DNA of 63,733 bases, from the NCBI GenBank assembly GCA_003225075.1, contig QIAP01000071.1, forward strand, positions 1 to 63,733, given 5' to 3'. The stretch is from Acidobacteriota bacterium. Its GTDB lineage: Bacteria > Acidobacteriota > Terriglobia > Terriglobales > Acidobacteriaceae. This document shows, one piece after another, positions 56,061 to 58,256 of this stretch (the stretch's first letter is position 1; each line of letters starts with the position of its first letter). Below the pieces are notes generated by a model, which saw only the letters and a list, made by a program, of their open reading frames with translations, did not search any database and was not told the origin of the DNA. Position numbers and translations under genes: made by a program.

Positions 56061-56426
56061 TTGGTGTGGACGCTTGCAACATCAGTTGGAGTCGTCCGAG
56101 TGTTGCTCTGCGTAATGGCAGCGCCAGCGTTAGCATGTCTATTGCCTGGACGCGCCCTCACGCCGCAAGAGCACGCCTGCTGCAAACGCATGGCTCGGCA
56201 GTGTGGGTCGATGAGGATGTCGTCCTCTCATTCGTGCTGCCAAATTGAGGTCCGGGCACAGACCTCGCTGGTGAAGACGTCGGCGCCATCAGTGAATCCC
56301 CAGCTCCACGCAATTGCCAGTTACCAAGCCGCGTCCGAATCGCCGAATGCCTACAATGCAGATCCTCTGAATCCCATCCACCCGCCGCCGCGATCCTCGC
56401 CCAGCTCAACCATCCTGAGAATCTAA
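56061..56426 (+). CDS. Small secreted Cys-rich protein
   Basis: About 121 residues with a TTG or GTG start. Signal-like segment (LATSVGVVRVLLCVMAAPAL, then AC). The mature part contains HACCKRMARQCGSM and SSHSCCQ, i.e. paired and single Cys with Met and His, a composition that fits soft-metal binding. The rest is Pro/Ser-rich and probably disordered. I recall similar small proteins in acidobacteria but cannot name a family. It is followed 60 bases on by the outer-membrane gene; with the HMA and MerT-like genes it looks like one operon. Start codon is uncertain. Confidence 0.55.
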   Translation: MVWTLATSVGVVRVLLCVMAAPALACLLPGRALTPQEHACCKRMARQCGSMRMSSSHSCCQIEVRAQTSLVKTSAPSVNPQLHAIASYQAASESPNAYNADPLNPIHPPPRSSPSSTILRI

Positions 56427-56484: not shown

Positions 56485-57329
56485 ATGCGCACTCATGTGC
56501 TTTTATTCGCCTTATTGCTGGGGACCGGCGCGGAAGCATTCGCTTCCGGTCATGGCCCCGTTTTCGGCTTTGCCACACCGGTGAATTCGCAGGGGGAGTG
56601 GAGTTTCGACGCCGGAATGTTCGGGCGGAATGCTACGTTCGGCTCGCAGCTCACGGCGCGGACGATGGCGAGTTACGGCTTCACGCCCCACCTTCAGTTT
56701 TCATTGATCGCCCCCGCACTCGCGCAGCAAGGATCGTTGCCGATGACCATGATGTCGGGCGGAGGCGAGTTCCAAACCAATTTGGCGTGGCGTTTTCATC
56801 ATCAGCCGAATGCGATTGGAAGCCGCTTCGAAAGCACGGCTTCGGTCGGTCTGGTGGTGCCGGGCCCCAGGACAATTTCGGAATGTTTCGCGGCATGCGT
56901 TTGGCGCCGGGCGTAAGCAGTTGGATTGCTACAGGCGTCGCCTCGCGCAGTCATTACCTGTGGATCGGAGGTGGGCTTATGCGATTCGCGGAATCGCAGG
57001 GAGATCGCCGCCCGAACGTGTACTCAACCAGCTTCGTCTATGGGTACCGGCCACATGCCTGGCGCAACGATCGGCCGTGGGATTGGCGTTTGTTCGCCGA
57101 GTTTAGCGGCGAGTACGTAGGGCTGATGGAGCGGGCAGGAGCGTTGATGCCCGGCTCCGACGCCAGTCAGATTTTCGGCGGGCCGACGGTGCTGGGCATT
57201 TACAAATACTTTGCAATCTCCGGTGGCGCGCAGTTTCCGATTTATCGAGATATGGGGCGGCTGTATCCGCGTGAACGCGTGCGGTTCGCCATTAACGTCA
57301 GTTATTTCCTTTTCTCACATTCGCATTGA
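56485..57329 (+). pseudogene. Outer-membrane beta-barrel protein, frameshifted
   Basis: ATG with AGGAGAG upstream and a signal peptide (MRTHVLLFALLLGTGAEAFA). Beta-rich barrel of about 280 residues if a single frameshift is repaired: the first frame runs to 'SVGLVVPGP' and the other continues 'QDNFGMFRGMRLAPGVSSW' to 'INVSYFLFSHSH'. One C is missing in a CCCC run at 56865-56868. Strand pattern and terminal Phe are as in outer-membrane proteins, and the overall design is like the barrel at 7.1 kb. Probable role: metal or solute passage in the locus. Whether truly broken is unclear. Confidence 0.65.
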
Positions 57330-57338
57330 GGTGAATTT

Positions 57339-57758
57339 ATGAAAAGAATTTTGATTTGCGCATTCATTACTTTGACCTTGGCAGTTTCGGCACAGGCGGA
57401 ACTGCGCCGGGTCGAAATGAAAGTCTTTGGCATGGATTGAGGAGTCTGCGCCCACGCCGTGCGCGTGGCGCTGAAGAATATCAGCGGTACAGATACCGTT
57501 GATGTAAGCCTGAGCAAAGGCGAAGCCGTCGTGACTCTCAAACCGGCTAATGCGGTAAAGTACGAACAACTGTTGCGTGCAATCGAAAAGAATGGGTTTG
57601 TGGTGAAAGGCTCGAAGGTCGTTGCCGACGGCAGCGTAAGCGCGAGTGACGGCGTGACTAACCTTGGCGTCAGCAGCAGCAACGAGCGGCTGAAGCTTGA
57701 ACCCGCGGACGCGAATGTTTCCGCGGCAACCGGACTGTCAGGGAAACTGTCGAAGTGA
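57339..57758 (+). CDS. MerP-like periplasmic HMA protein, candidate selenoprotein
   Basis: About 139 residues if the TGA at 57438-57440 is read through. GAGGTG precedes the ATG; signal peptide KRILICAFITLTLAVSAQA, then the HMA fold. The metal motif, normally GMxCxxC, reads GMD-(TGA)-GVCAHAVRVAL, so the TGA replaces exactly the first metal-binding Cys. The frame is open on both sides and ends in TGA at 57756. The rest (DTVDVSLSKGEAVVTLKPAN, then LLRAIEKNGFVVKG) is a normal HMA domain. A GC-rich hairpin with apical loop CGUGC follows the TGA. Alternatively a point mutation TGC/TGT to TGA made it a pseudogene. MerT-like gene is 77 bases downstream. Confidence 0.6.
57438..57471 (+). promoter_or_regulatory. 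Candidate bacterial SECIS: TGA plus hairpin
   Basis: TGA at 57438; seven bases on, a nine-pair stem (GCGCCCACGC / GCGTGGCGC, one bulged C) closes a five-base loop CGTGC at 57458-57462. The apical loop is 18-22 bases after the TGA and has G in its first two positions, as bacterial SECIS rules require. GC-rich coding sequence can make such stems by chance. Confidence 0.45.
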
Positions 57759-57835
57759 TCGGCACCATCCCGGAAGTTCCCAAAGGAAAAACTCCGGAAG
57801 TATTAAGGTATGACTCCATCGTGGAAAAGTGAACT

Positions 57836-58256
57836 ATGCCCGTGACAGCGGCGCCCAATCGCCAGAACTTCTGGTTGCAATATCTTTCCCTTTTTTCATC
57901 GCTGGGCACGCTGTTGTGCTGTGCTCTGCCGTCATTGCTGGTGTTGTTTGGGCTGGGCGCCACTGTGGGCTCGCTGCTAACGGCGGTGCCGTGGCTGGTC
58001 AGCCTTTCGCATCACAAGAATTGGGTGTTTACGGTTGCCGGTGTACTGATTGGCGCTAATGTTCTGTATGTGCATGTAGTCGCGCCACGCTTGAGAGTGA
58101 GCACCCTTACCTGCGAGCAGCGCGATGATTCCTGCACCAGAGCCGCCCCATTTCAGCATTGTCGTTCTATGGATTTCGGTCGCGATTTACGCTATCGGGT
58201 TTTTCGTGGCCTATGTGCTGGGGCCGACTCTTACGTGGCTCGACAGATCGGGTTAG
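57836..58256 (+). pseudogene. MerT-like membrane protein, frameshifted
   Basis: First frame: MPVTAAPNRQNFWLQYLSLF then SSLGTLLCCALPSLLVLFGL, a helix with a vicinal Cys pair as in MerT helix 1; then a second helix (NWVFTVAGVLIGANVLYV) and a loop with two Cys (LTCEQRDDSC). The third helix (IVVLWISVAIYAIGFFVAYV) is in another frame, ending LGPTLTWLDRSG at 58256. One extra C in the run at about 58144-58150 accounts for this. The design (Cys pair in helix 1, two Cys in the loop, three helices, downstream of a MerP-like gene) strongly recalls mercuric transporters. Gene is broken or mis-sequenced. Confidence 0.6.

Follow-up and report, generated by a model that had tools for sequence, protein, structure and literature searches.

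A candidate selenoprotein family of secreted HMA metallochaperones with a Sec-x-x-Cys site, encoded in a conserved transport-like cassette found mainly in Acidobacteriota

An in-frame TGA at the metal site of a small HMA-domain gene from an Acidobacteriota bacterium (contig QIAP01000071.1) is almost certainly read as selenocysteine (Sec). By sequence comparison, the genes very probably form a true family of selenoproteins in which Sec occupies the place of a metal ligand, and they lie in a conserved transport-like cassette. The best overall explanation, to which we assign a probability of about 0.86, is that TGA 57438-57440 is a Sec codon in an HMA metallochaperone belonging to a conserved soft-metal transport cassette. 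Comparison between genomes supports the Sec codon, the SECIS element, the Sec machinery, the predicted fold and the cassette as likely features of the family. The whole stretch of DNA analysed, 63,733 nucleotides long, is referred to as the window. Its cassette, comprising a Cys-rich protein, a predicted 12-stranded outer-membrane barrel, the Sec-HMA protein and a MerT-like membrane protein, is laid out as follows.

56061..56426, forward strand: small Cys-rich, secreted-looking protein (ACCKRMARQC...SCC), the first cassette gene, with relatives in other loci
56485..57329, forward strand: gene for a predicted outer-membrane beta-barrel, with a frame break at about 56862-56904; an intact homologue (L086) is modelled as a 12-stranded barrel
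57339..57758, forward strand: Sec-HMA gene (MerP-like), first frame up to an early stop
57438..57440, forward strand: in-frame TGA, read as Sec, codon 34, at the first Cys position of GMDCxxC
57452..57468, forward strand: bacterial SECIS hairpin, from folding and covariation; 6-bp stem 57452-57457/57463-57468, loop 57458-57462 (CGUGC)
57743..57832, forward strand: rest of the Sec-HMA C-terminus, shifted to another frame by a break between 57725 and 57743, from comparison with relatives
57836..58256, forward strand: MerT-like inner-membrane protein with Cys pairs, frame broken at about 58110-58165 (by eye)

The Sec-HMA frame has a good start, GAGGTG lying upstream of its ATG. Its translation begins with the hydrophobic N-terminus MKRILICAFITLTLAVSAQA, a leader that by eye ends in AQA, and continues with VFGMD*GVCAHAV, in which the TGA is the sole internal stop. 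With this codon passed on as Cys, the protein reaches 48.9 bits against Pfam HMA (PF00403; gathering cut-off 24.8). The original prediction, an open frame with a good start, a signal peptide, a single TGA at the first metal-binding Cys and an HMA domain behind it, was thus correct in all these respects; the end it gave to the frame probably was not. The gene is likely to have its natural end beyond the stop at 57756, since a homologous C-terminus runs on at 57743-57832 in another frame and the relatives are mostly longer: those with a complete frame have 148-188 aa in 27 of 32 cases and 113-142 aa in the others, against 139 aa for the window frame.

Homologues were sought in 61 genomes, the window's own and 60 relatives. 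At E 1e-6 nine of them gave a match, the own genome included, and 52 gave none, among these a genome of the same genus (G001). The five best relatives in this search (62, 50, 46, 39 and 34 % identity) all contain exactly one TGA at the same codon, as expected if close homologues share the Sec codon. A class-wide survey found matches at E 1e-7 in 77 of 399 genomes; codons were read in the fetched loci. The site [FY]GMD-U-xx-C occurs in 14 orthologue loci, 13 of them distinct since L019 and L043 are the same stretch, and FGMD-C-xx-C, with TGC or TGT at the critical position, in 11 orthologue loci from two genera, in genomes without SelB over the cut-off. The eleventh Cys orthologue (L055) aligns in two pieces and was omitted from the Cys hairpin alignment and from the cassette count; second Cys copies in G137 and G302 lie outside the fetched set. 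L019 and L043 represent one stretch in two assemblies, on contigs equal in length (G053:C18, JAKCCV010000025, and G130:C21, JAKAWG010000042), and these genomes are not independent here.

The hairpin just downstream of the TGA begins, as a conserved stem, 11 nt after the codon, with the loop at 17 nt. The original prediction had a hairpin with G in the apical loop starting seven bases after the TGA. The hairpin is real; its start varies with the way the lower stem is laid out, and short-segment folding of the window sequence gives pairing from the fifth base after the TGA. The published bSECIS model has an upper stem of 4-16 bp, a loop of 3-9 nt, a G in the first two loop positions and the loop 16-37 nt after the UGA (PMC13188914). 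With 6 bp, a 5 nt loop, G at loop position 2 and 17 nt, the window element falls within these limits of size, spacing and loop G, the model's free-energy criterion lying outside the comparison.

The evidence for the hairpin is comparative, since the single sequence folds unexceptionally: for the 59-nt stretch alone z is -1.16, 26 of 200 shuffles are equally stable, and the minimum-energy structure also has other stems. An Rfam scan of 57300-57800 returned only drum RNA (19.1 bits, gathering cut-off 43). The UxxC genes are gapless from the TGA on, and columns 15-20 pair with columns 26-31 around a loop that reads CGUGC, CGUGA or CGUGG. Among 13 distinct sequences (the window and 12 relatives, not chosen by pattern; L043 omitted as the L019 segment) 98.7 % of cells are paired and five of the six pairs show changes on both sides. 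Covariation is 0.487 against a shuffle mean of 0.182, a value reached by none of 500 shuffles, with the structure drawn from the same sequences and their relatedness left in by the shuffles. When the 3' partner is shifted by 1 to 3 columns, pairing drops to at most 61.5 % and covariation to at most 0.147, and RNAalifold selects the same helix unaided. The Cys orthologues lack the hairpin: ten of them show 46.7 % pairing and not a single double change.

A DNA pattern combining GMD-TGA-xx-C with the loop and part of the 5' arm, which leaves the 3' arm alone as an independent test, was run against 84,980 species genomes. It yielded 41 stretches, 12 of which repeat survey segments; the distinct segments number 38. 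Read by eye, all 41 are UxxC HMA proteins. The leader is visible in 38, the remaining three (L083, L101 and L102) being cut at the 5' side, and six hairpin pairs are present in 38 of the 41 and five in the other three. When codons were redrawn synonymously for the 41 distinct segments contained in 55 rows of the survey and pattern sets, with third-position G+C assumed to be 68 %, a mean of 2.4 segments and a maximum of 7 in 200 redraws had all six pairs, against 38 in reality. Carriers of the pattern are mostly Acidobacteriota; they also include Gemmatimonadetes (3), bacterium HR33, Planctomycetota, a deltaproteobacterium, Polyangium and an Acidimicrobiia MAG. Since nearly all carriers are MAGs, single odd placements may be binning errors.

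The genome that holds the window (assembly of 4.79 Mb in 259 contigs, 97.6 % complete) contains all four components whose presence a Sec reading calls for. SelA reaches 545.2 bits (cut-off 267.9), SelB 369.4 (242.25), SelD 349.9 (125), its match having an in-frame TGA of its own at codon 11, and tRNA-Sec 70.2 (gathering cut-off 47); ARAGORN also calls a tRNA-SeC with anticodon tca. Passing these cut-offs is not automatic, as only 2, 1, 2 and 5 of 14 control genomes do so for SelB, SelA, SelD and tRNA-Sec, respectively. Moreover, SelB over its curated cut-off accompanies the Sec forms in 29 of 32 genomes (14 with UxxC, 18 with UxxU) and the Cys orthologue in none of 11. Fisher's test gives p = 6.3e-8, or 2.7e-6 with UxxC only, for genomes counted by hand from tables and uncorrected for kinship. 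The three misses are G253, whose SelB is split between two contigs (pieces of 215 and 208 bits), and G267 and G351, both incomplete assemblies (79 and 73 %). The best matches to the SelB model in the Cys-orthologue genomes do not exceed about 197 bits, and we read them, by size, as EF-Tu or other GTPases.

A separate subfamily with the site GM-x-U-xx-U contains two TGA codons and was found at 19 loci in 18 genomes (L022, L054, L057-L062 and L065-L075, in G027, G214, G127 and others), the sites reading GMT-U-NF-U or GMI-U-GL-U. Its C-terminal region is similar to that of the UxxC family. In the four loci with ORFs listed (L054, L057, L060 and L073), a TlpA-like (thioredoxin) gene follows the UxxU gene in three and a Cys-rich gene precedes it in two, by eye. 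Since L022 scores 39.7 bits against NF041115 (cut-off 95), the L022-type proteins may constitute a UxxU family without an existing model. A FastTree phylogeny of the HMA region (56 Sec/Cys sequences and 3 MerP stretches, with 12 of the 19 UxxU loci and 20 of the 41 pattern stretches) places the UxxU set in a clade of its own (support 0.956) together with L076, which has UxxC and yet groups there. The ten Cys orthologues form one clade drawn inside the UxxC sequences, with a support of 0.995 that belongs to the clade itself and not to its nesting; the topology suggests a single Sec-to-Cys change in the history of the family. Stop codons also occur in distant HMA matches: TAG in G089:C8:51417, with Cys codons at both metal positions, and in G136, and TGA plus TAA in G162:C92. 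The stretch G089:C8:51417-81127 (L063, L065 and L076) holds four HMA genes within about 30 kb, two CxxC, one UxxU and one UxxC, and looks like a metal island.

It is possible, though rather doubtful, that the family is a true selenoprotein family of which the window copy is an emerging pseudogene whose protein is not made in full. The original prediction had warned of indels in neighbouring genes and of a nonsense mutation. The indels are real: in comparison with G018 there is a shift of frame in the barrel gene, at about 56862-56904, and another in the HMA gene, between 57725 and 57743, and the MerT-like gene, which the homologue comparison did not split, continues by eye in another frame from about 58145. 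Thus three cassette genes are broken within about 1.4 kb (56862-58165), whereas the compared neighbour genes at 59.1-63.4 kb and 43.8-49.2 kb each run in one frame; a further apparent break at 45.8-46.9 kb, a two-frame match in the L141 frame, was discarded as it covers real genes on the other strand in single frames. This copy may therefore be decaying or misassembled, and may no longer be made in full. The same-genus genome without the gene at E 1e-6 also favours decay, as do nonsynonymous distances: to five further distinct relatives, Ka from the window is higher than that from L016 by 0.04 to 0.13 in four comparisons and falls slightly below it in the fifth. On the other side, any decay must be recent since the TGA, the SECIS and the whole HMA domain are intact and Ka to L016 is 0.28, Ks being near saturation at about 1.5. 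A run of four C in two of the three break regions fits base-calling error, a weak argument since the window has many runs of this kind (11 per kb, counting all bases). The breaks could reflect either recent decay or a local assembly error. The nonsense worry thus retains its force for the frame breaks, through which the copy may lose function, and not for the TGA itself, given the conserved codon, the SECIS and the machinery.

The fold predicted for the family is the HMA fold seen in metallochaperones. The model of the Sec-HMA homologue L086 (pLDDT 91.5) comprises an HMA domain and a C-terminal beta domain and superimposes on MerP (1osd) with Z 9.2 and rmsd 2.0 over 72 residues. Its best PDB matches, which reflect the HMA part and hardly cover the C-terminal domain, are the copper chaperone for SOD1 (ranked highest by Foldseek E-value, yet with a poor rmsd), MerP (1osd), CopZ (6ff2), Atx1 and HMA domains of copper ATPases. 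MerP is a secreted single HMA domain with GMxCxxC. The window protein shares with it (TIGR02052; PDB 1osd, 1afi) the secreted single HMA domain and the MerT-type neighbour, and differs in its UxxC site, MerP having a Cys/Cys site, a 92-position model and a mer operon. The description as MerP-like is therefore apt, while identity with MerP proper was rejected: TIGR02052 gives 37.3 bits against 92.55, and the window genome, at 97.6 % completeness, has no MerA over cut-off (best 365 bits against 454.45). The best NCBIfam match, over the HMA region, is NF041115, the UxxU metal-binding (seleno)protein, with two Sec residues by name and review table; it was likewise rejected, with 53.7 bits against 95, since the window protein has one Sec and Cys at the second metal position. 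NF045683, a MerT/CopZ fusion-like selenoprotein, shares Sec in heavy-metal transport (19.2 bits for the window protein against 375); this family and the E1-E2 ATPase (UxxC) have fusion or P-type ATPase architectures, unlike the window protein. None of the five UxxC members scanned exceeds any NCBIfam cut-off.

Sequence and model data point to an arrangement, conserved in several bacterial phyla, in which the gene stands beside a likely metal transporter. Among the 41 pattern stretches the barrel gene is found in 37 (three of the four misses have no upstream sequence), the MerT-like gene in 28 (six of the 13 misses have <500 bases downstream) and both together in 25; in seven the MerT-like gene lies upstream of the barrel. 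All 10 Cys-orthologue loci examined have barrel and MerT-like genes, and 9 of these 10 also match the Cys-rich gene (E 1e-3). At L091, TGA and hairpin (five of six pairs) accompany a diverged C-terminus, and neither a barrel nor a MerT-like gene was found. The L086 barrel is modelled with twelve strands (pLDDT 81.6); its PDB matches include FapF and a COG4313 channel (5o68, 4rl8), with a query TM-score of about 0.6 and 10-13 % identity, a likeness in predicted fold alone. Pfam and NCBIfam gave no family over cut-off for barrel homologues or for the one Cys-rich homologue scanned. The MerT-like protein has a CC pair within its first hydrophobic segment and, in a loop, a further pair of Cys, a layout that we take to be that of MerT. 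Identification as MerT itself was rejected, with PF02411 at 14.6 and 14.0 bits in two relatives (gathering cut-off 32.9) and no match for the window copy or that of L086.

Some loci carry MerR-type regulators. In L116 a MerR-type regulator precedes the barrel; Pfam MerR is over its cut-off, and on NCBIfam CueR (97 bits) and MerR (95 bits) are both below theirs. In G037:C14 (L142) barrel and Sec-HMA genes adjoin a mer operon with a Cys MerP of its own (merP, merT and merR by eye; MerA 529.7 bits, with its neighbour in frame), and another MerR-type gene lies on the other side. MerA over cut-off is present in just two (G053 and G037) of 17 genomes searched, out of 25 with the gene. A mercury-only role was rejected on this count, and mercury detoxification is not the general role of the cassette, given also the lack of a clear MerA in the window genome.

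These features suggest a route for a thiophilic metal ion across the envelope. SelB and tRNA-Sec, aided by the hairpin just downstream, would decode TGA 57438-57440, yielding a secreted, presumably periplasmic, HMA-fold metallochaperone with a Sec-x-x-Cys site and a small C-terminal beta domain. The outer-membrane barrel would pass the ion in (or out), the Sec-HMA protein would bind it in the periplasm, and ligand exchange would then transfer it to the Cys pair that the MerT-like inner-membrane protein has in its first helix. The ion could be Hg(II), Cu(I) or Ag(I), and the direction of transport would be either of the two.

Known selenoproteins are mostly redox enzymes or homologues of these. 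Sec-x-x-Cys might be a redox site, for example one that reduces disulfides or metal-bound thiols, rather than a metal carrier. We consider this unlikely. Bacterial UxxC selenoproteins are mostly thiol oxidoreductases according to a survey and a review (PMC2398784, PMC13188914), and the TlpA-like gene behind the UxxU gene in three of the four listed loci points the same way; however, the nearest structures, MerP, CopZ, Atx1 and the copper chaperone for SOD1, all have the HMA fold, and the partner is MerT-like, with MerR-type regulators in some loci. An ordinary Cys protein in which the TGA arose by nonsense mutation or sequencing error, as the frame breaks nearby might suggest, is extremely improbable in view of the same TGA codon in many genomes of several phyla, the covarying hairpin and the complete Sec machinery. 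Decoding of the TGA as another amino acid was rejected, since the orthologues have Cys and SelB and tRNA-Sec are present.

Sec in HMA proteins has precedents. Table 2 of the 2008 GOS survey contains a 'Mercuric transport protein MerP', with 2 Sec sequences in 1 sample and 0 Cys homologues, and a 'Putative mercuric transport protein' (PMC2398784). The former, a prediction from aquatic metagenomes, is likewise a selenoprotein of MerP type and may or may not belong to the UxxC family: motif, Pfam domain and context are absent from the table, whereas the window family is defined by UxxC, the C-terminal domain and the barrel/MerT-like cassette. The 119-family table of 2026 lists MerT (C/SxxU), E1-E2 ATPase (UxxC) and NF041115 (UxxU), and has no entry for a UxxC MerP or secreted HMA protein (PMC13188914). 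'MerP' does not occur in the main text of PMC9312934, and another study tests one acidobacterium with three known selenoproteins (PMC12013277). Nothing closer to the UxxC family was found in the open-licence literature, outside which most subscription papers lie. As far as these sources extend, Sec MerP, UxxU and P-type ATPase HMA selenoproteins were already known and the UxxC secreted family is a new variant.

A broader reading, which we put forward tentatively and at somewhat less than even odds, is that of a selenium-dependent trans-envelope relay for soft metals in Acidobacteriota, Gemmatimonadota, Planctomycetota and other phyla. It would consist of the barrel, the Sec-x-x-Cys chaperone and the MerT-like carrier, with Sec replaced by Cys in lineages without SelB and a sister UxxU branch partly paired with thioredoxin, and the selenol would serve as a metal ligand and not as a redox catalyst. 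Routine annotation would probably cut such genes short or overlook them, since TGA is normally a stop and no family model reaches its cut-off in the members scanned. On the preferred interpretation of TGA 57438-57440 as a Sec codon, the family would consist of metallochaperones in which Sec stands in for a Cys that ligates metal, and orthologues of both kinds, Sec and Cys, would occur naturally in one type of cassette. Such natural pairs would make the gain from a selenol at a soft-metal site directly testable.
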